Shown one piece after another: positions 3,904-25,492 of a DNA stretch of 32,639 bases. This DNA comes from Bacteroidota bacterium (lineage in GTDB: Bacteria; Bacteroidota; Bacteroidia; UKL13-3): assembly GCA_030680835.1 (NCBI GenBank), contig JAUXUD010000017.1:1-32639 (forward strand), in the 5' to 3' direction. Position 1 is the first letter of the stretch; every line of letters starts with the position of its first letter. A program made the translations under genes and the position numbers. Under the pieces are notes generated by a model. It was not told the origin of the DNA, made no database searches, and saw only the letters and a program-made list of their open reading frames with translations.

Positions 3904-3921
3904 CCCCGATAGCTATCGGGG
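3904..3921. repeat. Palindromic repeat, copy 2
   Basis: CCCCGATAGCTATCGGGG, the palindrome with outer C/G instead of T/A. Its last base is the first base of the heptamer array at 3921. Confidence 0.85.
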
Positions 3922-3970
3922 TACGATGTACAATGTACAATGTACAATGTACGATGTACGATGTACGATG
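3921..3970 (+). repeat. Heptamer array, units GTACAAT / GTACGAT (seven units)
   Basis: Seven uninterrupted 7-bp units in the order GTACGAT, three GTACAAT, three GTACGAT. Read one rotation later, each is GATGTAC or AATGTAC. It abuts the palindrome at 3904-3921, downstream of the dehydrogenase-like gene. Confidence 0.95.
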
Positions 3971-4015
3971 ACAAGTAATTTACGCAGTACAATATACTAA
4001 AATATAATTTTCTTT

Positions 4016-4029
4016 CCGATAGCTATCGG
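4016..4029. repeat. Palindromic repeat, copy 3 (shortened)
   Basis: Core CCGATAGCTATCGG, with one outer arm base changed on the left. It is followed by pyrimidine-rich heptads and the CTCATAM array, the same order as at 18427-18490. Confidence 0.85.
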
Positions 4030-4060
4030 GATTCTATTTCCTGCTTTCTGCTTTTTTCAA

Positions 4061-4151
4061 CTCATAACTCATAACTCATACCTCATAACTCATAACTCAT
4101 ACCTCATAACTCATAACTCATACCTCATAACTCATACCTCATAACTCATAC
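4061..4151 (-). repeat. Heptamer array, units CTCATAA / CTCATAC (13 units)
   Basis: Exactly 13 units (91 bp) with no indels. With a=CTCATAA and c=CTCATAC the order is aacaacaacacac, a 21-bp and then a 14-bp higher-order repeat. On the minus strand the units read GAGTTAT/GAGGTAT, the sense of the GT9 gene. The GT9 stop codon (4146-4148) lies inside the last unit. Confidence 0.97.
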
Positions 4152-5117
4152 TTCAATTTCCAAATCCTCCATGCATCTAAAGTGCCCCTTCGGGCAATGG
4201 TTAAATCCAATCTTGCTACAAGGACGGCATGATAAATTATTATTTTCGATGATGCTGCTTTCGATGGTATACTTGCCATAATACGGATACATGCCAAATG
4301 CAGGAATAGTGTTTCCCCAGAAGGAGATTATTGTTTTTTTTAGTGCGGCGGCAATATGCATTAAACCGGTATCATTGGTGTATAATCTGAGTGAATGTTT
4401 AATTACCCAGGCCGATTGGTTCAGGGTTAATTTACCACAGGTATTGATGCAGCGTTCTCCTATGGCTAGTTTTATTTCATTGCCTCTTTCTGCATCATCC
4501 GCACCTCCTAAAATGATGATGTTTAAATTTGTTTTTCTGCAGGCTTCAATAATTTTATGAACAGGTAAACGTTTGCTGAAATGCTGTGCGCCAATAGCCC
4601 AGCAAATATACCGGGCCTGCAAGATTGGAATGCCTTCCAGTAAGTTTATTTGGTCGACTTGCGGAATAAAATAATCCAAACCTTCTTCATCATTTTTTAT
4701 ACCCAGAACCCGGGTAGGTTCAAAATAACGCGCCACAATATGTTTTTTGGGAAGCTTATTTATTTTGAAGTTTACCATTATAAATTTTTCAATGTTTAAT
4801 TTGGGAAAGGCAAAAGACCGTACTCCCAAAGCAGTTTTAAACAGGAGTGTTCGCAGGTTATGATGCAGGTCTATCACCAGTCCGTAATTTTCTATTTGCA
4901 ATTCCAGCCCTTTGGCAAAAGGATGTTTGTCTAACAAATGAATTTTATCGATATACGGATTGTCTGCCAAAATTTCCTGAAATGCGGGTTTGGTAAGGTA
5001 ATGAATACTGATGTCAGGCAATTGCTTTTTAATGCAGCGGATAACAGGTGTTGTTAATACAATATCACCAATGGAGCTAAAGCGGATAATCAATATTTTT
5101 TTTATGGGTTGATCCAA
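4146..5117 (-). CDS. Glycosyltransferase family 9 (heptosyltransferase-like)
   Basis: The product resembles ADP-heptose:LPS heptosyltransferases, which add sugars to the lipopolysaccharide core at the inner membrane. It has the N-terminal KILIIRFSSIGDIVLTTPVIR motif, a central GAQHFSKR substrate region, the C-terminal TNDTGLMHIAAAL motif, and a cysteine-rich tail with four Cys. The first possible start (TTG at 5141) lies inside a TAnnTTTG promoter element, so I prefer TTG at 5117, giving 323 aa. There is no ATG before the conserved motif. The final Val codon and stop are provided by the CTCATAM heptamer array. Exact sugar specificity is unknown. Confidence 0.85.
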   Translation of the reverse strand: MDQPIKKILIIRFSSIGDIVLTTPVIRCIKKQLPDISIHYLTKPAFQEILADNPYIDKIHLLDKHPFAKGLELQIENYGLVIDLHHNLRTLLFKTALGVRSFAFPKLNIEKFIMVNFKINKLPKKHIVARYFEPTRVLGIKNDEEGLDYFIPQVDQINLLEGIPILQARYICWAIGAQHFSKRLPVHKIIEACRKTNLNIIILGGADDAERGNEIKLAIGERCINTCGKLTLNQSAWVIKHSLRLYTNDTGLMHIAAALKKTIISFWGNTIPAFGMYPYYGKYTIESSIIENNNLSCRPCSKIGFNHCPKGHFRCMEDLEIEV

Positions 5118-5138
5118 AATAAAAGAATGGCTTTGGGT

Positions 5139-5146
5139 CAAATATA
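5139..5146 (-). promoter_or_regulatory. -7 element for the GT9 gene
   Basis: Minus-strand TATATTTG, an exact TAnnTTTG match. It overlaps the upstream TTG codon, which argues that translation starts further in, at about 5117. Confidence 0.45.
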
Positions 5147-5196
5147 AACTTTATAAATTCAGAAAAATAGATACTTAGCGTATTATTGCGGTAAGA

Positions 5197-6069
5197 ATGA
5201 TTAAGTATCCCTTTCCAGTAAAATATGTCACGATAAAACACAATCATCATGGCAGTGATATGAAACTAGCCTATTGTGATGAAGGAAAAGGTCCGCAAAC
5301 GCTTTTATTTATACATGGACTCGCAAATTACATCCCGGTTTTTAAGCATAATATCGAATTTTTAAAAAAGCATTTCCGCTGTGTTGCAGTAGATTTGCCG
5401 GGTAACGGACTTTCATCCAGCGGCGATTATCCATTTTCCATGCTTTTTTATGCCGAAACCATTTCAAGGTTTATTGAACACCTGAACTTAAAAAATGTGG
5501 TTCTGGTTGGACATAGCATGGGTGGACAGATTAGTGTAATTATTGCTTTGCGATTTTCGCATTTAATTAAAAAACTGGTGTTGCTGGCACCGAGTGGATT
5601 TGAATATTTTTCGGATATGGAAAAGTCGTGGGTAAAGGGCCTGATGCGTTTTGGCAGCTTTATGTATAGTGATGCCATGAGTCTGGAATCGGCCATTATC
5701 AATAGTTATTATCATGAAAAGAAGCAGGATGCACATCATATTATCAATGATTTAAAACATATCATGCTGGGGGAGCAGGGAAAATATTGGGGCAAAATGA
5801 CAAAGGCCAATATTGAAGGCATGCTGGATGAACAGGTATCTGTTTTTTTACCTGAAATAAAACAAAAGACATTACTGTTATATGGCAAGCAAGATGCATT
5901 GATACCCAACAAAGTGGTTCATTTCAATGAAACCACGGAGTCTCTTGCTAAAAAATCTGCAGCATTAATCGAAAATTGTGAATACCATATTATCCCGCAT
6001 TGCGGGCATTTTATCCAAATAGAAGCGGCTGATAAGGTGAATGATTTGATCTTAAAATTTTTGACTTAA
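5197..6069 (+). CDS. Alpha/beta-fold hydrolase
   Basis: This 290-aa soluble alpha/beta hydrolase has an oxyanion motif FIHGLAN near residue 40, a DLPGNGLSS strand-turn near 66, and a nucleophile elbow GHSMGG with Ser107. A probable acidic residue lies in LLYGKQDALIP and the catalytic His in the C-terminal PHCGHFIQIE. The cap region (about 120-215) is helical. It lacks a signal peptide. The family includes esterases, haloalkane dehalogenases and C-C hydrolases, and nothing here fixes the substrate. It converges with the universal stress protein gene with only 2 bp between the stops. Confidence 0.88.
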   Translation: MIKYPFPVKYVTIKHNHHGSDMKLAYCDEGKGPQTLLFIHGLANYIPVFKHNIEFLKKHFRCVAVDLPGNGLSSSGDYPFSMLFYAETISRFIEHLNLKNVVLVGHSMGGQISVIIALRFSHLIKKLVLLAPSGFEYFSDMEKSWVKGLMRFGSFMYSDAMSLESAIINSYYHEKKQDAHHIINDLKHIMLGEQGKYWGKMTKANIEGMLDEQVSVFLPEIKQKTLLLYGKQDALIPNKVVHFNETTESLAKKSAALIENCEYHIIPHCGHFIQIEAADKVNDLILKFLT

Positions 6070-6071
6070 AT

Positions 6072-6908
6072 TCAACTGCTCTTATGCATTACCAAAACCG
6101 GCAGACCCGAATCAAGAACCATTCTTTGTGAACTGCTTCCTATTAATAAATTTTCGAGCCAGGTATGTGAGCCCCGATACATGATAAGCAGTTGGGTATT
6201 GCCATAATTAATCTGACGTTTTAAATTTTCAGCAAGATTTAATTGCAAGTTCCCTTTTTTGATATTCAGTGTCAGGTTTTTATAAGGATGGGCGCGAAGA
6301 TATTTTTCAGCTTCCAGCATCAATTTTTCACTTTCAGGGCCCGCATAATCAAAATAAAAAATTTCTAAAACTGCCTGAAATACATTCGCAAAGGGCACTA
6401 AAACTTCCAACTCTTCTTCCAGTTTTTTTAAATCGGAAGCGTAAATTAAATGATAAATGGGTTCAAACTTATAGTTACCGGGTATAGCCATTACAGGAAA
6501 ATCGGCCTGGCTAATGAGTTTGGCCGTATTGCTTCCCCAAAAAACCTTTCGAAAGCCGCTGGCCCCGTGTGTACCCATAATAACCAAATCGCAATTGTTA
6601 TTTTTAAATGCCTGTTCAATGCCGAAATTAATTTCATTCTGACTGTCAACTTTTGCCGAAACTTTTACTTTTGACGGGTCCTGACCTATTTCTTTAATGG
6701 TGTTCTCATAGGTATCCAATAGCATATGCTGTTCTTCAGCTTCATCGAGGTAATAATTTTCGAAAGGCATTTCACTCACAGGAATAATTGCAGGAATAAC
6801 GTGGTAAAGCACCAGGCTGCTATTGGTATAAATTGCAAAGTGATAAGCATAATGCAATGCATTCTTAGCCTCAGGAGAATAATCGGTTGGCACCAAAATT
6901 GACAGCAT
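6072..6908 (-). CDS. Universal stress protein, two tandem UspA domains
   Basis: The 278-aa cytoplasmic protein is built of two UspA domains. The first (about 1-145) begins MLSILVPTDYSPEAKNAL and has the nucleotide-binding motif GTHGASG followed by GSNT (G-2x-G-9x-G pattern). The second (about 150-278) keeps the fold but has a diverged motif (MYRGSHTW, then GSSSQRMV). The first domain probably binds ATP; the second may not. Such proteins are usually induced by stress or growth arrest. The gene appears monocistronic with an exact TAnnTTTG element 29 nt upstream. Confidence 0.9.
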   Translation of the reverse strand: MLSILVPTDYSPEAKNALHYAYHFAIYTNSSLVLYHVIPAIIPVSEMPFENYYLDEAEEQHMLLDTYENTIKEIGQDPSKVKVSAKVDSQNEINFGIEQAFKNNNCDLVIMGTHGASGFRKVFWGSNTAKLISQADFPVMAIPGNYKFEPIYHLIYASDLKKLEEELEVLVPFANVFQAVLEIFYFDYAGPESEKLMLEAEKYLRAHPYKNLTLNIKKGNLQLNLAENLKRQINYGNTQLLIMYRGSHTWLENLLIGSSSQRMVLDSGLPVLVMHKSS

Positions 6909-6936
6909 AGCTTTCAGTTATTTAGGTAATTACATT

Positions 6937-6944
6937 CAAAATTA
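6937..6944 (-). promoter_or_regulatory. -7 element for universal stress protein
   Basis: Minus-strand TAATTTTG matches TAnnTTTG, with a T-rich region upstream where the -33 would lie. Confidence 0.45.
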
Positions 6945-6973
6945 AGAAATTTAATTAAAATTAAAAAATGTGG

Positions 6974-7057
6974 GGAACGAGAATCGAGAAACGAGAATCG
7001 AGAGGCGAGACAAGATTTGTTTTTTCTCGTTTCTCGCTTCTCGTTTCTCGTTTCTTT
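6974..7057 (-). terminator. Opposed heptamer arrays forming a hairpin, probable rnhA terminator
   Basis: The left block holds six units (GGAACGA, GAATCGA, GAAACGA, GAATCGA, GAGGCGA, GACAAGA; 6974-7015). The right block holds TTTCTCG, TTTCTCG, CTTCTCG, TTTCTCG, TTTCTTT (7023-7057). They are imperfect reverse complements around a short T-rich loop. Read on the minus strand, the structure lies just after the rnhA stop and is followed by ATTTTTTAATTTT, as expected for an intrinsic terminator. The terminator role is inferred. Confidence 0.65.
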
Positions 7058-7069
7058 TTTCTACTATTA

Positions 7070-7543
7070 CTAAAGAAGATTATTCCCAACCTGTTCCCGT
7101 TCATATACCACATCAACCAGCAGTTTCTTGCCATCAGCGGCTTCGGTTGCCAGTTGGTCGCATCGCTCATTCATGGGGTGTCCGGCATGTCCTTTTACCC
7201 AATGAAATTTTATGGTATGTAGTTTATACAATTCGAGAAATCTGCGCCACAAATCAGCATTTTTTTTGTCTTTAAACCCGGTTTTAACCCAGTTAAAAAC
7301 CCATTTTTTTTCTACCGATTCACACACATATCTGCTGTCGGTATAGATGCTGATATCCATTTGAGGTTTTTTCATGGCCTCGATGGCAACAATTACTGCC
7401 AGCAATTCCATTCTGTTATTGGTAGTTAAACGGTAACCTGCACTCAGTTCTTTTTTATGAATGCCACTCACCAAAACTGCGCCATAACCGCCTCTGCCCG
7501 GATTGCCACGCGCAGAACCATCTGTATAAATACTTACTTTCAC
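7070..7543 (-). CDS. rnhA: Ribonuclease HI
   Basis: The 157-aa enzyme cleaves RNA in RNA-DNA hybrids (primer removal, R-loops). Its catalytic carboxylates are visible: D8 in IYTDGSARGNPG, E46 in NNRMELLAV, D69 in IYTDSRYV and D129 in NERCDQLA, with H119 in VKGHAGH. Length is normal for bacterial RNase HI. The start is GTG (7543-7541), required because the conserved first strand KVSIYTDGS begins right there. The stop TAG is followed directly by purine-rich heptads and the hairpin at 6974-7057. Identification is firm. Confidence 0.96.
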   Translation of the reverse strand: MKVSIYTDGSARGNPGRGGYGAVLVSGIHKKELSAGYRLTTNNRMELLAVIVAIEAMKKPQMDISIYTDSRYVCESVEKKWVFNWVKTGFKDKKNADLWRRFLELYKLHTIKFHWVKGHAGHPMNERCDQLATEAADGKKLLVDVVYEREQVGNNLL

Positions 7544-7620
7544 TTAGCAAATAAAGGGTTTTCAATTCAAATAATAGAATCGGGTTGTTTTTGTGCTCAA
7601 CTCGTGCTTCATTTGCAGTG

Positions 7621-7628
7621 CAAAAATA
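7621..7628 (-). promoter_or_regulatory. Possible -7 element for rnhA
   Basis: Minus-strand TATTTTTG matches TAnnTTTG, 77 nt upstream of the GTG start. No good -33 is seen. Confidence 0.35.
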
Positions 7629-7650
7629 AAGGCCTTTCAATTTTTTTAAC

Positions 7651-8586
7651 ATGATCCAATATTTTAAAAGCAGTTACAACAAGCTTGTCGAAATTGAAGC
7701 CATTGAAAAGGATGGCTGGATCAATATAGTGAGCCCTACAGCCAAAGAAATTGAAATGCTTTCGAATAAATTGCTGGTACCCCCCGAAGTATTTATTGAC
7801 CCATTGGATCCGGATGAAAATTCACGCGTGGAAAGTCATAAGAACTCCATGCTGATTGTTTGCCGGGTACCCTGCGAAAACGGACAGGAATCGGATTTGC
7901 CCTATTCTACCATCGCACTGGGAATTTTGTTAAAACGCGATTTATTGGTAACCATCTGCAGCAGGCCAATAGAAGTTATTCAAACGTTTAAGGAAGGTAA
8001 GGTAAAAAACTTTTCAACTTCGAACCGGGAACGTTTTGTAATGCAGATGTTTTATAAATCATCCATGCTTTATTTAAAATACCTGAAAGATATTAATAAC
8101 AAAGCCGATGATATTGAAAGGATGCTTCACCGCAGCACCCGAAACCGGGAGTTACTCGACTTATTGAAGCTCGAAAAAAGTCTGGTATTTTTCAGCACTT
8201 CATTAAAATCAAATGAGCTGATGATGCAGCGTTTACAGCGTAATCATTTGCCCGAAACAACCAAGGAAAACGAACGTGAGCTGATAGAAGATGTAAATAT
8301 TGAAACCCGTCAGGCAATTGAAATGGCCAAAATTTATGGCAATATTCTTGGCAATATGATGGGAGCGCATTCCTCCATTATCTCCAACAATTTAAATATC
8401 ACCATCCGTTATTTAACCACCGCTACCATCATTTTGTCGCTTCCCATTCTGGTAGCCAGCATTTACGGAATGAATGTACCCCTTCCCTTTCAAAATGAAG
8501 CACACGCATTTTGGATCGTAATTCTGATCGCGGTAACATTATCAGTCCTAGGTGTATTCTTTTTCAGAAAGAAAGATTTGTTTTAA
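7651..8586 (+). CDS. corA: CorA-family magnesium/divalent metal transporter
   Basis: The 311-aa inner-membrane protein has the CorA plan: an N-terminal cytoplasmic funnel domain (about 1-240, with a long helix from about 140 to 250), then two C-terminal membrane segments. The signature YGMN (Y272-G273-M274-N275) sits at the end of the first membrane segment. The C-terminus ends in basic residues (FFRKKDLF). CorA pentamers import Mg2+, and some relatives move Co2+, Ni2+ or Zn2+; ion choice cannot be read here. It is a single gene, converging with the exported-protein operon at 8671. Confidence 0.93.
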   Translation: MIQYFKSSYNKLVEIEAIEKDGWINIVSPTAKEIEMLSNKLLVPPEVFIDPLDPDENSRVESHKNSMLIVCRVPCENGQESDLPYSTIALGILLKRDLLVTICSRPIEVIQTFKEGKVKNFSTSNRERFVMQMFYKSSMLYLKYLKDINNKADDIERMLHRSTRNRELLDLLKLEKSLVFFSTSLKSNELMMQRLQRNHLPETTKENERELIEDVNIETRQAIEMAKIYGNILGNMMGAHSSIISNNLNITIRYLTTATIILSLPILVASIYGMNVPLPFQNEAHAFWIVILIAVTLSVLGVFFFRKKDLF

Positions 8587-8589
8587 AAA

Positions 8590-8666
8590 GTCCATAGTCG
8601 ATAGACCATAGTCGATAGACTTTAGTACATCGTACATCGTACATCGTACATTGTACATCGTAATTT
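8590..8666. repeat. Heptamer array with in-phase motif change (11 units)
   Basis: Contiguous 7-bp units: GTCCATA, GTCGATA, GACCATA, GTCGATA, GACTTTA, GTACATC (three times), GTACATT, GTACATC, GTAATTT. The sequence changes family at 8625 but the register does not shift. It fills the gap between the convergent corA and 137-aa genes. Confidence 0.95.
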
Positions 8667-8670: not shown

Positions 8671-9084
8671 TTAATAAGAAATCTCACCCAACTCAAGGGC
8701 TTTATCCAGTTCAATCCAAATCAAGGTAAGCGGATAAGCGGTATAACACAACACTACCCGTTTTGAAATTCCTTTATCATCAAACTCATGCAAAGCTGCA
8801 ATTTTATATTTTTTGTCGCCCATTACGCAGGGCAAACGTTTTGCATCAATGCTCGAATCATCAAAGAATGCACTCAATAAGCCTTCCCCCGAGAGGGAGT
8901 CTACTTTTTTTTTGTTATATGCCTTGGTGCGTGCATACACATCAATGGAAACAAATTCGCTGCTGCCTTTTTTACAGGAATTAATTTTCAGATACTTTCC
9001 TACCTCCAGTTCTTTTTTAATTAAGTCCTGAGCATTTGTATGCATGAACAGCATTGAGAGAATAAATGTGATACATATTTTCAT
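8671..9084 (-). CDS. Exported protein of unknown function
   Basis: I do not recognise this 137-aa protein. It has a signal peptide (hydrophobic core ITFILSMLFM, cleavage probably after HTNA before QDL). The mature part has two cysteines that could pair (in SCKKGS and PCVMGD) and a third in VVLCYTAYP, and ends in a hydrophobic/acidic stretch (LTLIWIELDKALELGEI). Its ATG overlaps the preceding gene's stop as ATGA, so it is the last gene of an operon with the MORN-like protein, kynA and rfbC. Its stop is followed by a heptamer array. Confidence 0.75.
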   Translation of the reverse strand: MKICITFILSMLFMHTNAQDLIKKELEVGKYLKINSCKKGSSEFVSIDVYARTKAYNKKKVDSLSGEGLLSAFFDDSSIDAKRLPCVMGDKKYKIAALHEFDDKGISKRVVLCYTAYPLTLIWIELDKALELGEISY

Positions 9085-12077: not shown

Positions 12078-12105
12078 AACTTTTAACTTTTAACTTTTAA
12101 CTTTT
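12078..12105. repeat. Short heptamer array, AACTTTT (four units)
   Basis: Four exact units AACTTTT between the coiled-coil gene and the small lipoprotein gene. Complement rotation AAGTTAA fits the NANNTAN pattern. Confidence 0.85.
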
Positions 12106-12109
12106 ACTT

Positions 12110-14971: not shown

Positions 14972-15003
14972 ATAATTACCACAATTAAAATGCTTAAGTT
15001 TTT

Positions 15004-15045
15004 CTACTTTCTATTTTCTATTTACTATTTACTACTTCCTATTTT
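15004..15045 (-). repeat. Heptamer array, CTATTTW type (six units)
   Basis: Plus-strand units are CTACTTT, CTATTTT, CTATTTA, CTATTTA, CTACTTC, CTATTTT. In the sense of the acetyltransferase they read AAAATAG, GAAGTAG, TAAATAG, and so on. The stop TAG (15025-15027) ends one unit and the upstream units encode the protein's last residues. Confidence 0.93.
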
Positions 15046-15510
15046 CCCAATCATTTCTTCATCCAACCGGTAAACCGTCCATCCATTAATAGCCACAGCC
15101 CCAATGCTTTCATAGAAATCAATGGCCGGTTTGTTCCAGTCTAAAACACTCCATTCTACCCTGCCGCAATCTCTATCTTTGGCAATCTCAACAATCTTTA
15201 AGAGCAAGGATTTTCCATAGCCCTTTCCCCGGTAATCCGGATTCACAAACAGGTCTTCCAGGTATATTCCGGGTTTTGAAACAAAGGTAGAATAGTTGTG
15301 AAAATACACGGCAAAACCCACTGCCTGTTCCCCTTCAAATGCGAGCAAACATTCGGCAACTGCGTTCGGTTCAAAAAGATGTTTTTTAATTTTTTCGGGA
15401 GTGGCTTCTACCAAATGACTCAGCTTTTCGTATTCGGCAATGCCTTTTATAAAATCAAAAATCAAGCCGGCATCTGCTTCTGTTGCAAAACGTATTTTAA
15501 AATCCTGCAT
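15025..15510 (-). CDS. GNAT N-acetyltransferase, spermidine/diamine acetyltransferase-like
   Basis: The 161-aa enzyme is close in plan to spermidine/spermine N1-acetyltransferase and thialysine acetyltransferase proteins: IAEYEKLSHLV near residue 25, the acetyl-CoA loop YLEDLFVNPDYRGKGYGKSLL, and SVLDWNKPAIDFYESIGA. It likely transfers acetyl from acetyl-CoA to a small polyamine or amino compound. The last residues (KIGSSK) and the stop are encoded by the heptamer array and are probably not part of the ancestral fold. The preceding exported-protein gene ends 1 bp before its ATG. Confidence 0.88.
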   Translation of the reverse strand: MQDFKIRFATEADAGLIFDFIKGIAEYEKLSHLVEATPEKIKKHLFEPNAVAECLLAFEGEQAVGFAVYFHNYSTFVSKPGIYLEDLFVNPDYRGKGYGKSLLLKIVEIAKDRDCGRVEWSVLDWNKPAIDFYESIGAVAINGWTVYRLDEEMIGKIGSSK

Positions 15511-16049: not shown

Positions 16050-16089
16050 TTTACTTTAAGTTTATAAAGTGATAATATTGAACTTCAAA

Positions 16090-16740
16090 ATGAATAAAAA
16101 AGAAAGATATAAAGGGGTACTTGATTATTTTATAAAAAATAAACCCTTTGCAGAAACCGAACTGGTTTATGACAATCCGTTTCAATTATTAATCGCGGTG
16201 ATTTTATCGGCCCAGTGTACCGATAAACGTATCAATATGGTTACTCCGGATTTGTTTCGTGATTATCCAACACCAGAAAAATTGGCACATACTGATTTTG
16301 ATACTTTGTTTCCGTATATAAAAAGTGTGAGTTATCCGAGCAATAAAACCAGGCATTTATTGGGTATGGCAAAAATGCTGGTGGAAGATTTCAACGGTAA
16401 AGTTCCGGAGACGATTGAAGATTTGATAAAATTACCCGGAGTAGGCAGAAAAACGGCCAATGTAATTGCAAGCGTGGTATACAATCAACCTGCTATGGCT
16501 GTGGATACACATGTGTTCAGAGTAAGTGCACGTTTGGGTTTAACCACAAATGCAAAAACGCCTTTAGCCACTGAGCAGCAACTGGTAAAAAATATTCCGG
16601 AAGAATACATCTCAATTGCCCACCATTGGTTAATATTGCACGGCCGTTACACCTGCCTGGCACGTAATCCCAAATGTGAGGTTTGTGGCTTGCAGGTGTT
16701 TTGTAAGTACTTTAATAAAGGTATGAGGTATGAGTTATGA
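16090..16740 (+). CDS. nth: Endonuclease III
   Basis: This bifunctional DNA glycosylase/AP lyase removes oxidised pyrimidines. From ATG 16090 it is 216 aa, with helix-hairpin-helix LPGVGRKTANVIA, catalytic Lys120, the nearby Asp139 in AVDTHVFR, and the C-terminal [4Fe-4S] cluster C-x6-C-x2-C-x5-C. An earlier GTG at 16069 is possible but adds residues not expected in the family. The last residues GMRYEL and the TGA stop are encoded by the GTATGAG heptamer array, so the natural C-terminus has been replaced or extended. Confidence 0.95.
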   Translation: MNKKERYKGVLDYFIKNKPFAETELVYDNPFQLLIAVILSAQCTDKRINMVTPDLFRDYPTPEKLAHTDFDTLFPYIKSVSYPSNKTRHLLGMAKMLVEDFNGKVPETIEDLIKLPGVGRKTANVIASVVYNQPAMAVDTHVFRVSARLGLTTNAKTPLATEQQLVKNIPEEYISIAHHWLILHGRYTCLARNPKCEVCGLQVFCKYFNKGMRYEL

Positions 16741-16881
16741 GGTATGAGTTATGAGGTATGAGTTATAAAATATGAGGATTAGTTGAAGTATTTTGATTAT
16801 TATATTTTGACGAACTCTTACCTCTTACCTAAGCACTCATACCTAACTCATACCTCATACCTAAGCACTCATACCTCAAAT
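16721..16881. repeat. Opposed heptamer arrays after nth
   Basis: Left block 16721-16776 has eight units: GTATGAG and TTATGAG alternating, then TTATAAA and ATATGAG. Right block 16815-16881 holds CTCTTAC (twice), CTAAGCA, CTCATAC and CTCAAAT units, with one 4-nt slip at 16843-16846. The blocks are largely complementary and could fold as a hairpin between nth and the 156-aa gene, possibly a terminator. Confidence 0.9.
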
Positions 16882-18445: not shown

Positions 18446-18515
18446 CCTATTTTCTACTTTCAGCTTTCTTTTTTCCCAACTCATACCTCATACCTAAAAC
18501 GTAATTCTTAATGTC
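18446..18515 (-). repeat. Heptamer array after palindrome copy 4 (10 units)
   Basis: In-phase units CCTATTT, TCTACTT, TCAGCTT, TCTTTTT, TCCCAAC, TCATACC, TCATACC, TAAAACG, TAATTCT, TAATGTC. Register begins 2 nt after the palindrome. The last units overlap the direct repeat at 18487. Confidence 0.75.
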
Positions 18516-18547
18516 ATCCTGAGCTTGTCGAAGGGTCATACCTCATA
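18487..18547. repeat. 61-nt direct repeat, first copy
   Basis: Identical to 18570-18630 except for one base (G at 18501, A at 18584). It contains ATCCTGAGCTTGTCGAAGG, an interspersed-repeat sequence I recognise as widespread in bacterial genomes. Heptamer TCATACC units flank it. The 355-base spacer 18363-18717 holds only repeats and a promoter, no gene. Confidence 0.85.
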
Positions 18548-18569
18548 CCTAATACCTAATACCTAATAC

Positions 18570-18630
18570 CTCATACCTAAAACATAATTCTTAATGTCAT
18601 CCTGAGCTTGTCGAAGGGTCATACCTCATA
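18570..18630. repeat. 61-nt direct repeat, second copy
   Basis: Second copy, 83 bp downstream of the first, separated from it by TACCTAA-type heptads. Confidence 0.85.
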
Positions 18631-18663
18631 AGCATTGGTTATCAATATATAAGTAAAATTTTA

Positions 18664-18696
18664 TTTGTTTTTAAAGCAAATTATTCATTAATTTTG
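18664..18696 (+). promoter_or_regulatory. Promoter of the LruC lipoprotein gene
   Basis: TTTG (18664-18667), 21-bp spacer, TAATTTTG (18689-18696). Best consensus Bacteroidota promoter in the window. It rules out the TTG at 18694 as start. Confidence 0.65.
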
Positions 18697-18717
18697 TTTA
18701 ACCTTTACCAACAAAAC

Positions 18718-20730
18718 ATGAACCGTTTTATTTTTTTTATGATGCTGCTTGCAATTGTGTCTTGTCAGAAAGATACGGTTATAGATATCAGCAATCCGGT
18801 AAATCCAAACCCCACAAAGACAACAGAACTGAAAATTCCTCCGGGATTTAATTTTGTGAATACCCAATTAATTGACCTGCAGATTACGGTATTAAACAGT
18901 AACAATTCCGCCGGGAAAAACATTTCGGTTATAATTTCCGATAATCCATTGGATCAAAACGGAAGGATTATTGCAAAGGGTATGGCCGATGCCAACGGAC
19001 TTTATAAAGTAACTTTATCGCTTGCAAAGGCCACAACCAAATTGTATTGCAATACCTCCATGCTTGGCATTCCCCAAAATATTATCATTAATAATTTAAA
19101 CGCTCATGTTTCTCTTATTCTCGGTGGGAGTAATCCAAAATGGGTTCAAACTTCGAATGGTTTTTTAACGGTTAACCAGAACAGTTATAAAAAAGGCGCT
19201 GAAAAATTTTCATTCCGTTTGCTAAGCGGATGGAATGCAAACGGAGTTCCCAATAATCTTGCATTACCCCGCGATGTGGTGAGCAGCCAAATGATTAATG
19301 ATATATGGTCGGCACTGCCTTCGCGTGTTTCGGTAGCAACCACGCACCCCACTTGGCTGGATGATAATCTGAGCCGGCGTACTTTATTATTAACCCAAAC
19401 AGCCGATGTATATGTTACCTTTTTAACCGAAGGTGCAGGCTATCGCAATACCCTGTTTTATTATCGGTATAATAAAAATTATCCGCCGGCATCAGCTTCT
19501 GCTATTGATTCTCTGTTTGTTTTATATCCCAATGCTTCATTAATAAACGATGGAGGAGGATTGCTTACCGGTGACCGGGTTTACCTGGGAAGATTTGGTG
19601 CGGATACAGTGATTGCATATGGTATTGCAGCCAATGGATTTAACATTTCAAATGCAACGGTGGGTGCAGGCGATTGGTTGTTTTATGCCAATAAAAACTT
19701 TAACCCGGAAACCAATACCAGCCTCCGTCAACATATGATTATGTTATATGATGCCCCCAGTGGAAAATATATCATGGGCTTTGAAGATATTATCCGTTCG
19801 GCTACAGGTTGCGATCACGATTTTAATGATGTATTATTTTATACCACCAGCAATCCGGCCAATGCCATTTCACACGACAGCATTATAAACATGCCTACCA
19901 GTACAGATACCGATGGAGATGGAGTTTTAGATGTTGATGATGAATATCCAACAGATCCATTACGGGCATTTAACAACTATTACCCTGCAAAAAATGTAAA
20001 AGCTACAGTTGCCTTCGAAGACCTGTGGCCTTATTACGGGGATTATGATTTAAACGATGTGGTGATTGATTATAATTATAAAATTATTACCAATGCACAA
20101 AATGCAGTGAAGGATGTAAATGGTACTTATACATTAAGAGCCAGTGGCGGACAAATAAGAAATGCATTTGCGGTTCAGTTTCCAACTACGGCATCCAATA
20201 TTACTTTGTTATCTGGAGCAACTTTAGAATCAGGTCAAACATCGGCTGTTGTAAAAATAATTAACGACATCAGATCGGTTCAGGCCGGCTGGAATACAGT
20301 TTCAACATCAAGCTGGTCGGATACGGTAAACTATGCGGTAAACTTTACTTTAACAGCGCCCATTGCATTAAGCACCTTCGGACTCAATGAATACAATCCC
20401 TTTATTTGGGGAACCAGTGATGGGAAAAACCGGTCATATGAAATTCATTTACCGGGTAAAGTGCCAACTGCTTTAGCTGCAGACAGCCTCTTTGGTAAAG
20501 GCGATGACAGAACCAGTGCAAGCAACAATAAATATTACCTGAGCAAGGATAATTTACCTTGGGCAATCAATATCCCCGAGCGCTTTGATTACCCGATAGA
20601 AAAGGAAGATATTATCAATGTGCATCTGAAGTTTGCCCAATGGGCGCAGAGTGCCGGAGCGCAGTATCCCGATTGGTATAAAAATCTTTCAGGATATCGG
20701 AATGCTTCGAAGATTTATGTGAAACCTTAA
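18718..20730 (+). CDS. LruC-domain lipoprotein with DUF4114-like region
   Basis: The 670-aa surface lipoprotein starts at ATG 18718, after a consensus promoter. The signal ends in a lipobox (LLAIVSC, Cys18). The N-terminal third is a beta domain of unknown type. About residues 318-373 resemble DUF4114 (DWLFYANKNFNPETN, then GFEDIIRSATGCDHDFNDVLF). An Asp-rich calcium-binding-like stretch follows (DTDGDGVLDVDDEYPTDP, about 397-414). The C-terminal part has the LruC pattern FEDLWPYYGDYDLNDVVIDY. Such proteins are exported and their role is unclear, possibly carbohydrate or matrix binding. The stop is directly followed by a heptamer array. Confidence 0.88.
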   Translation: MNRFIFFMMLLAIVSCQKDTVIDISNPVNPNPTKTTELKIPPGFNFVNTQLIDLQITVLNSNNSAGKNISVIISDNPLDQNGRIIAKGMADANGLYKVTLSLAKATTKLYCNTSMLGIPQNIIINNLNAHVSLILGGSNPKWVQTSNGFLTVNQNSYKKGAEKFSFRLLSGWNANGVPNNLALPRDVVSSQMINDIWSALPSRVSVATTHPTWLDDNLSRRTLLLTQTADVYVTFLTEGAGYRNTLFYYRYNKNYPPASASAIDSLFVLYPNASLINDGGGLLTGDRVYLGRFGADTVIAYGIAANGFNISNATVGAGDWLFYANKNFNPETNTSLRQHMIMLYDAPSGKYIMGFEDIIRSATGCDHDFNDVLFYTTSNPANAISHDSIINMPTSTDTDGDGVLDVDDEYPTDPLRAFNNYYPAKNVKATVAFEDLWPYYGDYDLNDVVIDYNYKIITNAQNAVKDVNGTYTLRASGGQIRNAFAVQFPTTASNITLLSGATLESGQTSAVVKIINDIRSVQAGWNTVSTSSWSDTVNYAVNFTLTAPIALSTFGLNEYNPFIWGTSDGKNRSYEIHLPGKVPTALAADSLFGKGDDRTSASNNKYYLSKDNLPWAINIPERFDYPIEKEDIINVHLKFAQWAQSAGAQYPDWYKNLSGYRNASKIYVKP

Positions 20731-20731
20731 G

Positions 20732-20808
20732 GAAATACGAAATACGAGTTACGAGTTACGAGTTACGAAATACGATGTACAATGTACAATGTACGATGTA
20801 CAATGTAT
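20732..20808 (+). repeat. Heptamer array with four in-phase motifs (11 units)
   Basis: Units: GAAATAC (two), GAGTTAC (three), GAAATAC, GATGTAC, AATGTAC (two), GATGTAC, AATGTAT. All but the last fit (G/A)ANNTAC and the register never shifts. It starts 1 nt after the stop codon of the LruC gene. Confidence 0.97.
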
Positions 20809-20844: not shown

Positions 20845-20921
20845 CGAGACCTAATCCTGTTAGAAAGCGAAACTTAAATGATTTAACATTATTGAAATTT
20901 GCCACCATTGACACGTAGTTT

Positions 20922-20942: not shown

Positions 20943-20963
20943 ATATCTTGCAAATTATTAAAT

Positions 20964-20998
20964 CATATTTCCTATTTCCTATTTCATACTTCCTAAAT
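20964..20998 (-). repeat. Heptamer array at the 3' end of the second USP gene (five units)
   Basis: Plus-strand units CATATTT, CCTATTT, CCTATTT, CATACTT, CCTAAAT. In the USP sense these read GAAGTAT, GAAATAG, GAAATAG, GAAATAT after the stop. The stop TAG (20993-20995) is inside the last unit. Confidence 0.9.
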
Positions 20999-21868
20999 GA
21001 TAAATTCCGATTTGAACATTTCGTAGTGTGGGTTCACGCAAAAAACGGGAACATTGCCCGAATCATTTACGATTTGTTGCGCATAGGTTTCAATGATGTA
21101 TTCTCTTATGGATTTATCACTTTCCTGCTGCGTCATAATCATGATTAAATCTGCCATTTTTAATTCGGCAAATTCCAAGGTTTTGCGTGCAAAATCAGAA
21201 CCACTGTCTAAAATGGTTTCATCATGTTTCACCCCGTTTTCATCAAACATATTCTGAATCTGGCGTAAGTTTGCCATCAGTTTATTGTTTAAAAACTCAT
21301 CGCTTACACTGTAGGTTAATACATGTATGGTTGAATTATACGCTTTCCCCAAATGGATGGCCCATTTCATTTTTTGTTTGGATTCCAATGACAGGTCAAG
21401 AGGAAAAACAATATTTCGGTATGCATTTGGGTTTTTATCTGTTTTAACCACAATTACCGGAGTGGTGCTGTAACTGATGGTTCGGCTTGCATTGCTGCCA
21501 ATTACACGCTCAACGCCACTTGCACCATGGGTTCCCATAATTACACAGTCGCAACCATGCTCTTCGGCGGCAGCAATAATGGTTTTATAAATTTTGCCAC
21601 TCCGCACATCAATTTTGCAATCAATACCAAATTCGGCCTTGGTACGGGCAGCAATTTCTTTTAAACGGCTGGTTAGGGCTTCTTTGGCTAAACTTTCTTT
21701 GGTGTCGTTCTTGCTAAAACTGAAAATATTACTTAAAAAATCTTCTTCCAGAATACTTAATAATACCAGATCGTTGTCAAAATGCTTTGCAAGTTGTGCC
21801 GCATGATGCAACGCATTCATCGAAATTTCGGAAAAATCGACAGGTACCAACATGATATTTTTTTTCAT
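20993..21868 (-). CDS. Universal stress protein, two tandem UspA domains
   Basis: A 291-aa protein, paralogous in plan to the one at 6072-6908. Domain 1 (MLVPVDFSEISMNALHHAAQLA, then MGTHGASGVERVIGSNASR) has the full ATP-binding G-2x-G-9x-G-S/N pattern near residue 120. Domain 2 (about 155-280) lacks a clear copy. It diverges from the nucleoside phosphorylase gene across a 73-bp spacer, with an exact TAnnTTTG 31 nt before its ATG. The stop codon sits in a heptamer array. Confidence 0.9.
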   Translation of the reverse strand: MKKNIMLVPVDFSEISMNALHHAAQLAKHFDNDLVLLSILEEDFLSNIFSFSKNDTKESLAKEALTSRLKEIAARTKAEFGIDCKIDVRSGKIYKTIIAAAEEHGCDCVIMGTHGASGVERVIGSNASRTISYSTTPVIVVKTDKNPNAYRNIVFPLDLSLESKQKMKWAIHLGKAYNSTIHVLTYSVSDEFLNNKLMANLRQIQNMFDENGVKHDETILDSGSDFARKTLEFAELKMADLIMIMTQQESDKSIREYIIETYAQQIVNDSGNVPVFCVNPHYEMFKSEFII

Positions 21869-21898
21869 AGATATAAATTTAACGTTTTATTTTTTTTG

Positions 21899-21906
21899 CA
21901 AAGGTA
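21899..21906 (-). promoter_or_regulatory. -7 element for the second universal stress protein
   Basis: Minus-strand TACCTTTG, matching TAnnTTTG, in the divergent spacer. Confidence 0.45.
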
Positions 21907-21941
21907 ATTGTTTTACTTAGCTGTAAACTTAATAAATTGTT

Positions 21942-22799
21942 ATGAGCCAAAAAATTTTAGCCAGTGAATTGATCTTAAACCCTGATGGCTCCGTATATCA
22001 TCTCAATCTGTTCCCACATGAAATAGCCGATTTGATACTATTAGTTGGTGACCCTGAGCGTGTTCCGCAAATATCAAAACATTTCGACCGCATTGATCTG
22101 AAGCGTCAAAAAAGAGAATTTGTAACCCATACCGGTAGCATTGGTTCCCGTCAGATTTCTGTAATTTCTACCGGAATTGGAACCGATAATATTGATATTG
22201 TTTTGAACGAATTGGACATTTTAGCCAATGTAGATTTAAGCAACCGGGAAATTAAATCCCACAATAGGGATTTATTTTTGGTACGTGTTGGAACCAGTGG
22301 CGCATTGCAACCTGATATTGAAGTGGACAGCATGTTGGTTTCTACCCATGGTTTAGGTCTGGATAATTTGCTCTGGTATTATCAGCTTGAACACGACGCC
22401 GATGTTAAATACCTGGCCGAAGAACTGGGCCTTGATTTTGTAAAACCCTATTTGTTTAATGCGTCCGAAGAATTGCTGAACAAATTTGATGAGAAAAGTT
22501 TAAGAGGGATTACGGCAACCTGCAGCGGTTTTTACGGAGCGCAGGGCAGGCAGTTGCGTAAGCCCATATCTGAACCCAATCTGGTTGCCAAATTGGGTAA
22601 AATTAATATTAATGGCAAACGCGTTACCAATTTCGAAATGGAAACCGCAGCCATATTCGGGCTGAGTAAACTCTTTGGGTTCAAGGCCATTGCTATTAAT
22701 GCCATAGTAGCCAACCGGGTGAATCATACATTTAGTAAAAATGGATTACAGACCATAGAAAATACCATTCGTTACACCCTCGATTGTTTATTAAAATAG
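21942..22799 (+). CDS. Nucleoside phosphorylase (uridine phosphorylase-like)
   Basis: The 285-aa enzyme of the PNP/UDP family cleaves nucleosides with phosphate. It has the phosphate-binding GDPERV (G36-V41), ISTGIGTDNIDIVLNEL, RVGTSGALQPDIEVDS, and the ribose-contacting FEMETAAIFGL motif near residue 230. The family includes uridine and purine nucleoside phosphorylases and AMP nucleosidase. The motif set favours uridine-type, but the base specificity is not proven. It is probably cotranscribed with dprA, whose ATG is 2 nt after its stop. Confidence 0.88.
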   Translation: MSQKILASELILNPDGSVYHLNLFPHEIADLILLVGDPERVPQISKHFDRIDLKRQKREFVTHTGSIGSRQISVISTGIGTDNIDIVLNELDILANVDLSNREIKSHNRDLFLVRVGTSGALQPDIEVDSMLVSTHGLGLDNLLWYYQLEHDADVKYLAEELGLDFVKPYLFNASEELLNKFDEKSLRGITATCSGFYGAQGRQLRKPISEPNLVAKLGKININGKRVTNFEMETAAIFGLSKLFGFKAIAINAIVANRVNHTFSKNGLQTIENTIRYTLDCLLK

Positions 22800-22801
22800 C
22801 C

Positions 22802-23902
22802 ATGTCAAACGATGCCCTGCTTTACCAGATTTCACTAAAACTCATCCCGGGGATCGGGGATGTATTGATAAAAAATTTAATCAGTTATTGTGGTTCTCCT
22901 GAGCAGGTATTTAAGCAAAGCCGTTCAAAACTCGAAAAAATACCCGGAATCGGTTCATTTTTAGCAGGTAATGTATCAGGTTTTAAATATTTTTCAAAAG
23001 CTGAACAGGAAATTGAATTCATCAATAAGCATCAGATTAAACCGATTTTTTATCTGGATAAACAGTATCCTTCCCGTTTAAAGGAAATTCCGGATGCTCC
23101 CTGTTTGATGTATGCGTTGGGGAATATTGATTTAAATCCGGCTAAGATTGTTGGCATTGTGGGTACACGCAAGGCAAGTGAATATGGTAAAACGTTTACT
23201 CAAAAGTTGGTTCACGATTTAAAAGAAATGAATTGTTTGGTATTGAGCGGACTGGCATATGGAATTGATGTGATTGCACATAAGGCAGCCATTGAAGAAC
23301 AGCTACCAACCATTGGGGTATTGGCGCATGGTTTGGATCGGATCTATCCGGCACAGCATAAAAATGTAGCCAAAAAAATGCTTGAGAATGGTGGATTGAT
23401 AACTGAATTTCCCAGTCAGACCAATCCCGACCGGGAGAATTTTCCAAAAAGAAACCGTATTGTGGCAGGCATGTGCGATGTGCTGGTAGTGGTTGAAACG
23501 GCTATAAAAGGAGGGGCAAGAATTACGGCCGAAATTGCCAACTCATATAACAAGGATATCATGGCATTACCCGGCCGCATCAATGATTATTATTCAGAGG
23601 GATGCAATTATCTCATCAAAGAAAACAAAGCCTCCATGATCACCTGCTCCGAAGATTTGATGAGCCTGATGCGTTGGGATGCCAAAAAAGGGCAAGCAAA
23701 ACGAACATCCAATTTGTTTTCCCAATTACTTGAGGAGGATGCACAATTATTATTATATATTCAGCAAAAACAAAAAATAGGGATTGATGATATGGCGTTC
23801 GACCTGCAGCTGGATCCCGGTGTGCTCGCCTTAAAATTACTCGAATTAGAGTTTGAAGGCTACCTGAGAACACTCCCCGGCAAACGATATGAACTAGTAT
23901 GA
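22802..23902 (+). CDS. dprA: DNA-processing protein DprA
   Basis: The 366-aa protein binds single-stranded DNA and loads RecA during natural transformation. It shows a helix-hairpin-helix start (LIPGIGDVLIKNLISYCGS, then IPGIGSFLAG), the Rossmann-like core VGIVGTRKASEYG, SGLAYGIDVIAHKAA, and RNRIVAGMCDVLVVVETAIKGGA. A C-terminal winged-helix domain ends the protein. I use ATG 22802, not a TTG at 22784 inside the upstream gene. Its last residues (YELV) and TGA run into the GTATGAG heptamer, much like the nth C-terminus (RYEL). Confidence 0.95.
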   Translation: MSNDALLYQISLKLIPGIGDVLIKNLISYCGSPEQVFKQSRSKLEKIPGIGSFLAGNVSGFKYFSKAEQEIEFINKHQIKPIFYLDKQYPSRLKEIPDAPCLMYALGNIDLNPAKIVGIVGTRKASEYGKTFTQKLVHDLKEMNCLVLSGLAYGIDVIAHKAAIEEQLPTIGVLAHGLDRIYPAQHKNVAKKMLENGGLITEFPSQTNPDRENFPKRNRIVAGMCDVLVVVETAIKGGARITAEIANSYNKDIMALPGRINDYYSEGCNYLIKENKASMITCSEDLMSLMRWDAKKGQAKRTSNLFSQLLEEDAQLLLYIQQKQKIGIDDMAFDLQLDPGVLALKLLELEFEGYLRTLPGKRYELV

Positions 23903-24005
23903 GCAATTAAGAATTAAGAATGATGAATTTCATACCTCATAACTCATACCTCATAACTCATACCTCAATTGATAACTCATACCTTATAACTCATGCCTAA
24001 TACCT
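23897..24005. repeat. Heptamer arrays after dprA, opposed
   Basis: Sense units GTATGAG, CAATTAA, GAATTAA, GAATGAT, GAATTTC (23897-23931). These are followed by opposite-polarity units CATACCT and CATAACT alternating (from 23931), a 12-nt interruption at 23966-23977, then CATACCT, TATAACT, CATGCCT, AATACCT. Ends about 55 nt before the alkaline phosphatase start. Confidence 0.9.
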
Positions 24006-24059
24006 CTTAAATTTAATTATATAACAAAAAGTTAAACTCTTTTCTGTTTTTTTGCAATT

Positions 24060-25145
24060 ATGAAAATTCGTATAATACTTGGATTGCTAATCTGCATCAA
24101 TATTTGGGTTGAACCGATTACAGCCTGGCCCGGAAAATCCAAAAAGCCTAAGAAAGTGGTCTTTTTAATTGGAGATGGAATGGGTTTGACTCAGATTACA
24201 GGAGCCATGGCAAATTATAAAGGACGCAATGCATTTGAGCGATTTAAAATTATCGGGTTCAGCAAAACCGCTTCTTCTGATAATTATGTTACCGACAGCG
24301 GGGCAGGGGCCACTGTTTTTTCAATCGGTAAAAAAACTTTTAATGGAGCCATTGGGGTGGATAGTGCAAGGGGAGAAAAAGAGGGCTTATTTGAAAAATT
24401 AAAGACAAAAAGATGGGGTACCGGGGTAGTAGCAACTTCTTCTGTAACCCATGCTACACCAGCTTCATTTTACGCACATGTAAGTTCCAGGCAATCTCAA
24501 GATGAAATTGCAGAATTTTTGATAACCGATAATTGTGATATTGCAATAGGAGGGGGAAAGCAGTTTTTTACCAGCCGCAAAGACAAACGCAATTTATTTA
24601 AAGAGCTTCACGAAAAAGGTTTTACCACCATTGCCGATACCGTTTTAAAAACCGTAGATGCAAAAAAACTGATTTATACGCTGGCCGATAATGGCATGAA
24701 AACCATGCAGGATGGAAGGGGAGAATATTTATTAAATGCAACCCTTTTGGCTCAGCAAAATCTTCAAAAATATTATGGAAATTATTTTTTGATGGTGGAA
24801 GGCTCGCAAATTGACTGGGGTGGACACGACAATAATTTTGAATACATGAAAGCCGAGCTCCTGGATTTTAACCAGGTGATTAATGAAGTACTGGATGCAG
24901 CGATTAAGGATGGAAATACCTTGGTTATCGTTACAGCAGATCATGAATGCGGAGGTTTAAGCCTGCTTGAAAATAAGGATAATAAATTAACATTCAAACC
25001 CCATTTTGCTTCTGAAGGTCATAGTGGCGTAATGGTTCCTGTTTTTGCATACGGACCCGGTGCGGAGCAGTTTGCTGGTATTTATGATAACACAGCCATC
25101 TATTATAAACTCCTTAAATTATTAAGTTTAAATGAAAAGCTATGA
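24060..25145 (+). CDS. Alkaline phosphatase (PhoA superfamily)
   Basis: A 361-aa exported metallophosphatase with signal peptide (IILGLLICINIW, then a probable cleavage near ITAW). It has the metal-binding IGDGMG (D39), nucleophile region VTDSGAGAT with Ser80 (family form DSAAGAT, so Ala to Gly just after Ser), THATPASFYAH, EGSQIDWGGHDN, TADHECGG and EGHSG with the remaining metal ligands. It hydrolyses phosphate monoesters in the periplasm; phosphate starvation control is usual but I see no Pho box. The last 14 nt overlap the next gene. Confidence 0.94.
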   Translation: MKIRIILGLLICINIWVEPITAWPGKSKKPKKVVFLIGDGMGLTQITGAMANYKGRNAFERFKIIGFSKTASSDNYVTDSGAGATVFSIGKKTFNGAIGVDSARGEKEGLFEKLKTKRWGTGVVATSSVTHATPASFYAHVSSRQSQDEIAEFLITDNCDIAIGGGKQFFTSRKDKRNLFKELHEKGFTTIADTVLKTVDAKKLIYTLADNGMKTMQDGRGEYLLNATLLAQQNLQKYYGNYFLMVEGSQIDWGGHDNNFEYMKAELLDFNQVINEVLDAAIKDGNTLVIVTADHECGGLSLLENKDNKLTFKPHFASEGHSGVMVPVFAYGPGAEQFAGIYDNTAIYYKLLKLLSLNEKL

Positions 25146-25383
25146 AACGTATATTTGGGCAGGTAGTTTAATAGTTGCAGGCATATTAATCGTTTACCTG
25201 ATACTACCTAAATTATTTAAAAATTACCAAACCGAAAAAGGCATAAAACTATTAATTTTTTATGCCATGATGGGATATCTCTCTTATGATTTTTACCTAA
25301 AAGAAAAGTATTTATATATTCTGTTTTTTGCCATAGGAGCAGCAGTATTCACCTATTTAGTTGTTATCGCTAAAAGGAAGTAG
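25132..25383 (+). CDS. Small membrane protein of unknown function
   Basis: An 83-aa protein with about three hydrophobic segments (SLIVAGILIVYLILP, LLIFYAMMGYLSYDF, YILFFAIGAAVFTYLVVIA) and a basic C-terminus (KRK). It starts 14 nt inside the phosphatase gene in another frame, so it is translationally coupled. Its stop TAG is the end of the first GAAGTAG heptamer. No family is recognised; the context suggests an envelope partner of the phosphatase. Confidence 0.65.
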   Translation: MKSYETYIWAGSLIVAGILIVYLILPKLFKNYQTEKGIKLLIFYAMMGYLSYDFYLKEKYLYILFFAIGAAVFTYLVVIAKRK

Positions 25384-25439
25384 GAAGTAGAAAATAGGAA
25401 GTATGAATTAAGAGTTAAGAATTAAGAGTTAAGAAGTAC
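25377..25439 (+). repeat. Heptamer array with six motifs in phase (nine units)
   Basis: Units: GAAGTAG (two), AAAATAG, GAAGTAT, GAATTAA, GAGTTAA, GAATTAA, GAGTTAA, GAAGTAC. The first includes the stop codon of the 83-aa protein. All fit (G/A)ANNTAN. Confidence 0.97.
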
Positions 25440-25450
25440 CTAAAATTTAT

Positions 25451-25492
25451 TTACATCGTACATCGTAATTCGTACATCGTAATTCGTAAATT
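25451..25492 (-). repeat. Heptamer array on the GH25 side (six units)
   Basis: Plus-strand units TTACATC, GTACATC, GTAATTC, GTACATC, GTAATTC, GTAAATT. On the minus strand, one rotation, GAATTAC and GATGTAC. It lies 5 nt after the GH25 stop, in its sense. Confidence 0.95.

Follow-up and report, generated by a model that had tools for sequence, protein, structure and literature searches.

Tandem arrays of seven-nucleotide units have been described in the intergenic spacers of several bacterial groups. In their sections on repeat placement, Rehm et al. 2015 (PMC4692102) report G-run heptamers of Xanthomonas and Nostoc that lie at gene edges, form convergent pairs and are scarce between divergent genes, and they consider G-quadruplexes. 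The passages of MacGregor 2015 (PMC4679880) on direct repeats place TAACTGA in Beggiatoaceae, Cyanobacteria and five Bacteroidetes. For the heptanucleotide class of long simple sequence repeats, Mrazek et al. 2007, as cited in PMC4679880 and PMC4692102, found that seven-nucleotide units outnumber the other long units in most of its genomes, and polymerase slippage is suggested there. Subirana and Messeguer 2021 (PMC8161180, the part on Bacillus) describe tandem repeats of constant size and variable sequence. Here we analyse heptamer arrays in the spacers of a contig of a Bacteroidota bacterium (the window: all 32,639 nucleotides of JAUXUD010000017.1, assembly GCA_030680835.1). The window is contig C77 of this genome, G000 (4.30 Mb, 104 contigs, 99.84% complete), whose nearest named relative is the Bacteroidia bacterium LF-bin-458 metagenome-assembled genome (MAG), with a DprA 79% identical.

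The closest parallel is with the GGGAATC and GGGGA(C/T)T repeats of Rehm et al., whose G-rich strand is described as coding within 50 bp past stops and non-coding before starts. Among 171 labelled arrays in our material, the G-richer strand was sense in 77 and antisense in 16 within 50 nt after stops, and antisense in 22 and sense in 2 within 50 nt before starts. Their convergent inverted pairs are likewise matched by our two-array clusters on opposite strands, which run + then - in 14 of 14 cases and never - then + (one -+- triple exists). In contrast, their units contain runs of three to four G, while most arrays here have none (GGG in 17 of 171), the unit varies by locus and the hosts are Bacteroidota. 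The TAACTGA repeats are also spacer heptamers in tandem, mixed with related heptamers and taxonomically sporadic, and their complement, CAGTTAT, is one base from the GAGTTAT used here; however, they are presented as a fixed single unit that in BOGUAY lies mostly just upstream of starts, whereas our units vary and are more often found past stops. The original prediction, made from the letters of the window, knew of no heptamer repeats in Bacteroidota, a gap that the five Bacteroidetes sets of MacGregor had already filled. By length the arrays belong with the long simple sequence repeats (50 vs 0 in shuffled sequence), for which the citing passages give no polarity rule. The Bacillus repeats are similar in combining a fixed length with a sequence that varies by locus and species, but their units are given as 20-21 or 52 nt. 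No other reports of gene-edge polarity were found in the heptamer and tandem-repeat literature among open-licence PMC papers. What the present data seem to add is that units need no G runs to follow the rule, which spans several unit families, is found in Bacteroidota and can be put in one geometric form.

Period-7 excess and polarity at gene edges

Arrays were detected with our own script (score at least 12), with Tandem Repeats Finder used alongside on the window; gene edges come from our own open reading frame (ORF) and codon-score script rather than a published caller. In 425,462 bases of G000 (window included), taken from stretches partly chosen for known arrays, so that array density is no random estimate while the contrast between periods is unaffected, we found 50 period-7 arrays against 0 in a first-order Markov shuffle. 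The same detector on the same sample gave 0-5 arrays for each of the periods 4-6 and 8-13, and periods 14 and 21 only echo period 7. The genome-wide excess expected by the original prediction is thus present; over 825 kb the count reaches 62. The sister genome G004 holds 43 period-7 arrays in 200 kb, with 0-2 for periods 5, 6 and 8-12. The arrays are real, and in both genomes period 7 is dominant and a small number of unit families is favoured.

The window itself carries 15 such arrays in 33 kb, above the density of the other G000 stretches read. Tandem Repeats Finder lists period-7 arrays from 3921 to 25489, across the interval first described, and all the units named there are present. It was also correct that the longer spacers are mostly array-bearing (8 of 13 of at least 100 bp, and 8 of 9 of at least 140 bp, the exception being 26274-27034). 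An assembly artefact is rejected, as the same placement rule was found in genomes with contigs of 4.4 and 5.5 Mb (G206 and G317). Contig C1 of G000 terminates within a GATGTAC array (C1:34204-34233), so arrays may break assembly and the longest ones may be missing.

Most units had been predicted to fit (G/A)ANNTAN (RANNTAN) when read in the sense of the gene they follow. With this consensus as strand label, sense and antisense arrays at gene 3' ends numbered 33 vs 7 in G000 and 11 vs 3 in G004 (p 0.06). Other members of the family gave 4 vs 1, and distant genomes, whose stretches were chosen by unit sequence or at random positions, gave 17 vs 2. The reversed unit GAGTATT, meant as a control, proved to be a heptamer family with the same gene-edge habit (14 of its 39 loci were used, the rest overlapping the same arrays or lying in G000 itself). 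For this reason, and in view of the GAGGTAT arrays of two distant loci (L159 and L161) discussed below, the arrays were relabelled in a unit-agnostic way, by whichever strand has G in excess of C. Array content was the reason for fetching many loci, while strand and gene edge played no part in their choice. The 171 arrays so labelled comprise 117 that are at most 50 nt from a gene edge and 54 that are farther away; 16 in called genes and 9 ties were set aside.

Under this label the polarity takes a simple geometric form. In 98 of 127 cases (98 vs 29), an array next to the left edge of a spacer has its G-richer strand on +, and one next to the right edge has it on -. Spacers with a single array keep this outward rule in 57 of 70 cases (57 vs 13; at start-codon edges only, 17 vs 4), and pairing therefore does not create the polarity. 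By position of the array start past the stop, sense to antisense ratios were 43:5 at or before +3, 19:1 at 4-12 nt, 8:7 at 13-50 nt and 2:5 at 51-100 nt; before starts, antisense to sense ratios were 22:2 up to 50 nt away and 6:6 at 51-100 nt. The bias fades with distance and is limited to the edges of genes. Sense relative to the preceding gene is only part of a wider rule, outward from the gene edge, under which arrays before starts are mostly antisense. Local composition is not its source, because G does not prevail over C in array-free 3' regions (363 vs 423), and composition was likewise rejected as a seed, single RANNTA words in the array-free 3' regions of G000 also being without strand bias (223 vs 241).

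Heptamers outside the consensus obey the same rule: near stops their G-richer strand is sense in 17 vs 2 cases, or 10 vs 2 without seven loci picked for GAGTATT (the genes of a syntenic relative, G018, were called with the G000 codon table for this count), and one ATAGACC array (L011) contradicts the label. The consensus is thus not the key that it was taken for, since other genomes carry heptamers outside it, and most of those near stops likewise have the G-richer strand sense. Placement and polarity generalise across unit families in the Bacteroidota sampled; the unit does not.

Unit families and their distribution

At least 80% of units matched RANNTAN, on any strand and in any phase, in 34 of the 50 arrays, against a mean of 5.5 and a maximum of 13 in column-permuted controls, and four consecutive RANNTAN units occur 1029 times genome-wide vs 17 for the reversed pattern (overlapping matches counted). 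In the 48 of 62 G000 arrays whose commonest unit fits, C is almost missing at unit positions 3 and 4, and changes between adjacent units (343 pairs) number 91, 7, 39, 87, 28, 12 and 33 at positions 1 to 7, a count that leans to the consensus because only fitting arrays enter it. Mixed arrays, such as that at 20732-20807, swap units without loss of phase. In G004 the commonest unit fits in 31 of 43 arrays, mostly as GAATTAC and its relatives, and families of the CCATAGA, GCCAGCA and CGAGAAG types are also present. RANNTAN is therefore a unit family prominent in the genus of G000 and G004, lineage-bound and not a general law. The diversity of units had been taken to argue against one transposed repeat; the in-phase unit switches and the dominance of one family in two genomes of one genus leave room for shared descent of the units. 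Whole-element transposition with shared unit order was rejected as weakly supported, the order common to loci being only somewhat above shuffled (8 pairs vs a mean of 3.3).

The arrays are sporadic, and fewer, among other relatives. G018 has 4 period-7 arrays in 232 kb, and none is visible in nine aligned G018 orthologous spacers or part-spacers. Three perfect copies of the unit were found in 3 of 116 relatives for GATGTAC and in 6 of 116 for CTCATAM; across the phylum, three GAGTTAT copies occur in 17 of 394 genomes vs 8 of 394 for its reverse, and GAGGTAT in 2 of 394 (G000 is excluded from these counts). A second placement class, resembling the Beggiatoaceae leader repeats, is represented by AATCTAA arrays of G317 and G138 with the C-rich strand sense (L139 9360-9392 and 10402-10448, L148 453-492), whose positions are 5 nt upstream of, 9 nt into and 11 nt upstream of called start codons.

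Arrays of the window and neighbouring palindromes

The first array of the window (GATGTAC/AATGTAC, 3921..3970, +) begins 28 nt past the stop of the + gene 2690-3892 and directly follows an 18-bp palindrome, CCCCGATAGCTATCGGGG (3904..3921), with TACG on either side; its inward partner (GAGTTAT/GAGGTAT, CTCATAA on the + strand, 4059..4150, -) overlaps the stop of the - gene 4146-5141. A second inverted pair has CGAGAAT/CGAGAAA (6978..7010, +) as its first arm and CGAGAAA (TTTCTCG on +, 7023..7062, -) as its second, 7 nt from the stop of the - ORF 7070-7543. ATAGTCG/ATAGACC type heptamers with period 14 and two alternating units (8589..8620) are followed by a GATGTAC array (GTACATC on +, 8625..8662, -), 8 nt from the stop of the - gene 8671-9084. 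Both the TTTCTCG/CGAGAAT pair (6978-7062) and the ATAGTCG stretch fall outside RANNTAN, and the AAGTTAA array (AACTTTT on +, 12078..12106, -) matches it only antisense to the + gene that it follows.

A GAAGTAG/AAAATAG type array (15001..15044, -) runs into the 3' end of the - gene 15025-15510. At the + nth-like gene (16069-16740), a GAGGTAT/GAGTTAT array (16719..16766, +) starts 22 nt before the gene end and contains its stop; G018 has different codons there, and the array has invaded the reading frame. It is accompanied by an imperfect inverted arm of the CTCATACC type with indels (16813..16878, -). A TAGGTAT/GAGGTAT array (ATACCTA on +, 18536..18595, -) lies between two copies of the dispersed TGTCATCCTGAGCTTGTCGAAGGGT repeat. 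The mixed array of GAAATAC, GAGTTAC, GATGTAC and AATGTAC in one phase (20732..20807, +) begins 1 nt past the stop of the + gene 18694-20730, and a GAAATAG/GAAGTAT array (20963..20995, -) overlaps the stop of the - gene 20993-21868. A short GAATTAA array (23905..23928, +), 2 nt past the dprA stop, precedes a GAGGTAT/GAGTTAT inverted arm (TCATACC on +, 23930..24006, -) that lies before the alkaline-phosphatase-like gene 24060-25145. As second arms of inverted pairs, 16813-16878 and 23930-24006 are antisense to the preceding gene. Finally, a mixed array of GAAGTAG, AAAATAG, GAATTAA and GAGTTAA (25375..25434, +) has as its inward partner a GATGTAC/GAATTAC array (25452..25489, -), 7 nt from the stop of the - gene 25497-26273. 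With the exceptions named, the predicted consensus stood for most arrays of this genome, and the sense rule holds beyond the window.

Palindromes and other dispersed repeats accompany some of the arrays. CCCCGATAGCTATCGGGG was found beside or inside heptamer arrays at three sites (window 3904-3921, G000 C10:13661 and C5:137809), flanked by four identical bases, TACG twice and TAAG once. It looks like a small mobile palindrome with a 4-bp target duplication at the TANR step of the arrays; the array periodicity itself could add to the identity of the flanks. The dispersed repeat TGACCCTTCGACAAGCTCAGGATGACATTA occurs twice around an array within 18495-18640 of the window and once beside an array on G000 C55 near 92880, and arrays also have further dispersed palindromes nearby, of the GACGCGATTAATCGCGTC and GGGCGAATTGCATTCGCCC types. 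Just upstream of the intact tRNA-Met gene (26592-26666) is a partial copy in decay (26489-26544), whose D-loop region has the palindrome TCCCGATAGCTATCGGGA at the place of the AGT of the intact gene; in G018 contig C16, GGTAGCTC marks one tRNA-Met copy only, which is intact.

Candidate origins of the arrays and of their polarity

The explanation we place first, at somewhat less than even confidence, is that the arrays are slippage-grown intergenic heptanucleotide microsatellites for which gene edges would serve both as seed sites and as a filter, the filter being a candidate cause of the polarity. Copy number would rise by slippage in place, unit families would spread within a genome by copying between spacers, and orientation would be set, in the weakest step, by a gene-edge filter acting on the messenger. 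C is absent from all stop codons and G is present in most start codons, and the C-poor strand therefore tends to carry start and stop signals. This strand might thus be excluded from leaders, and tolerated just past stops as a source of spare stops and as poor Rho-loading sequence.

Growth in place is suggested by the dprA 3' spacer of related MAGs, compared at 42 loci (among them duplicates such as L001/L070, L003/L081 and L007/L088, the window itself as one locus, and two loci ending before the stop). L004, L005 and L008 have one or two copies of ATAGACN, and in L009 and L011 this unit type forms arrays about 100 and 200 bp long; L006 has another heptamer, and the remaining loci are without a period-7 array. 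L010 carries a period-8 array of the TTGATTTA type after the dprA stop, where some relatives carry period 7. The series is what in-place expansion would give, and the local process making 7-bp steps that had been predicted finds support at this one locus, where copy-number variation is known between species only (one or two copies vs long arrays).

Several observations weigh against the slippage reading. Its growth series comes from dprA alone; positions 2 and 6 of the unit change little (7 and 12 changes vs 91 and 87 at positions 1 and 4), which slippage alone would not give; and 16 of the 93 arrays near stops are antisense, among them the sole distant-genome GAGGTAT array close to a stop (L159), while the GAGGTAT arrays of L161 fall within a doubtful ORF. 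Moreover, GATGTAC lacks stop codons on both strands and is poor in C only to a mild degree. Of the 18 G000 arrays with GATGTAC or AATGTAC among their two commonest units, 15 are nevertheless sense and 1 (C55 146405) antisense close to a stop, and 2 lie elsewhere. A filter that acts only through stop codons or Rho therefore looks too weak: much of the polarity can be put down to filtering of leaders and trailers, but the strictness of GATGTAC cannot. The 7-nt step itself is left unexplained by slippage and filter.

The strictness of the stop-free GATGTAC would follow more readily if arrays were laid down directionally, a mechanism we nevertheless consider unlikely. A break in a spacer would be trimmed to the gene edges and its outward 3' ends lengthened, either with heptamer arrays at other sites as template or by another templated polymerase, before being rejoined, which would yield gene-flush arrays, the G strand outward and inward-pointing pairs. 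The polarity does track the gene edge and not gene direction (98 vs 29, and 57 vs 13 in single-array spacers), opposite-strand two-array clusters are never - then + alone, arrays are flush with stop codons, and the mosaics of units are coherent in phase. However, the enzyme that it calls for is hypothetical, a reverse transcriptase is not a common cause (see below), and the excess of shared unit order over shuffled order (8 pairs vs 3.3) is slight. The broader proposal, that a bacterial DNA-end process lays G-strand heptamers outward at healed breaks like micro-telomeres, leaving inward-pointing arrays across several phyla in which the unit drifts while the 7-nt step and polarity are kept, seems to us improbable.

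Placement and polarity would also suit a functional signal at transcript ends: a protein might bind the arrays, in RNA or in DNA, or the arrays might load Rho and so insulate genes against transcripts entering from outside; we judge this to be quite unlikely. An incoming transcript would read the C-rich strand, positions 2 and 6 change slowly, and the genome encodes a Rho RNA-binding domain. The rut sites of RhoTermPredict (PMC6407284) are defined by C>G content and spaced C residues, which are 11-13 nt apart there, not 7. On the other hand, C-rich leaders just upstream of starts would be costly under a Rho reading. Many genes do without arrays, because the nine G018 spacer alignments are array-free and array-free 3' ends have no C/G skew, and enrichment at convergent gene pairs is not significant (arrays at 14 of 96 vs 14 of 189 3' ends, p 0.06).

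That the arrays are arms of inverted repeats serving as terminators is suggested by the 26 of 85 arrays with an inverted 13-mer partner within 300 bp, vs 1 of 85 at control gene ends; some array regions also fold strongly (z to -8.3). Yet median fold z for array 3' regions vs controls was -1.35 vs -0.76 in G000, -0.52 vs -0.68 in G004 and -1.74 vs -1.73 in distant genomes, and polarity persists in single arrays. Hairpins account for a subset only, as intrinsic-terminator stability (U-tracts left unscored) is not clearly above that of control 3' regions as a class, and as an explanation of the arrays in general they appear very improbable. G-quadruplexes on the G-rich strand, suggested by the same placement and convergent pairs in the relevant sections of Rehm et al. 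2015 (PMC4692102), can hardly explain the placement and cannot be the general cause, because only 17 of 171 arrays hold GGG and arrays of GATGTAC, GAGTTAT and GAATTAC obey the rule without GG.

Other candidates were rejected. A stop codon as seed is contradicted by the phase of the stop relative to the unit, which spreads over five of the seven positions (47 sense arrays), and by the bias of arrays starting 4-12 nt past the stop (19:1); transcription-directed models such as R-loops are contradicted by the mostly antisense arrays before starts. DRT10 builds tandem-repeat DNA from an RNA template, as outlined in passages of a preprint (PMC12632851), but a DRT10- or telomerase-like reverse transcriptase was dismissed, a PF00078 match being absent in 8 of 12 array-bearing genomes searched and present in array-poor G018, G008 and G013 (232, 40 and 25 kb read). 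The sole PF00078 reverse transcriptase of G000 (724 aa, C22:4049-6220, locus L051; best PADLOC match RT_UG34) has an N-terminal DEDDh exonuclease-like match and lies in a gene-poor stretch; 11-nt words of the six main units were not found in the 9 kb around it.

In practical terms, the arrays can overlap stop codons, thereby altering protein tails, and at least one contig ends in an array. An accepted answer to the dominance of seven nucleotides among long bacterial microsatellites was not found in the literature, and polarity without G runs in another phylum removes quadruplexes as a general one. The question thus becomes testable: whether outward polarity is made at the birth of an array or filtered later at starts and stops.

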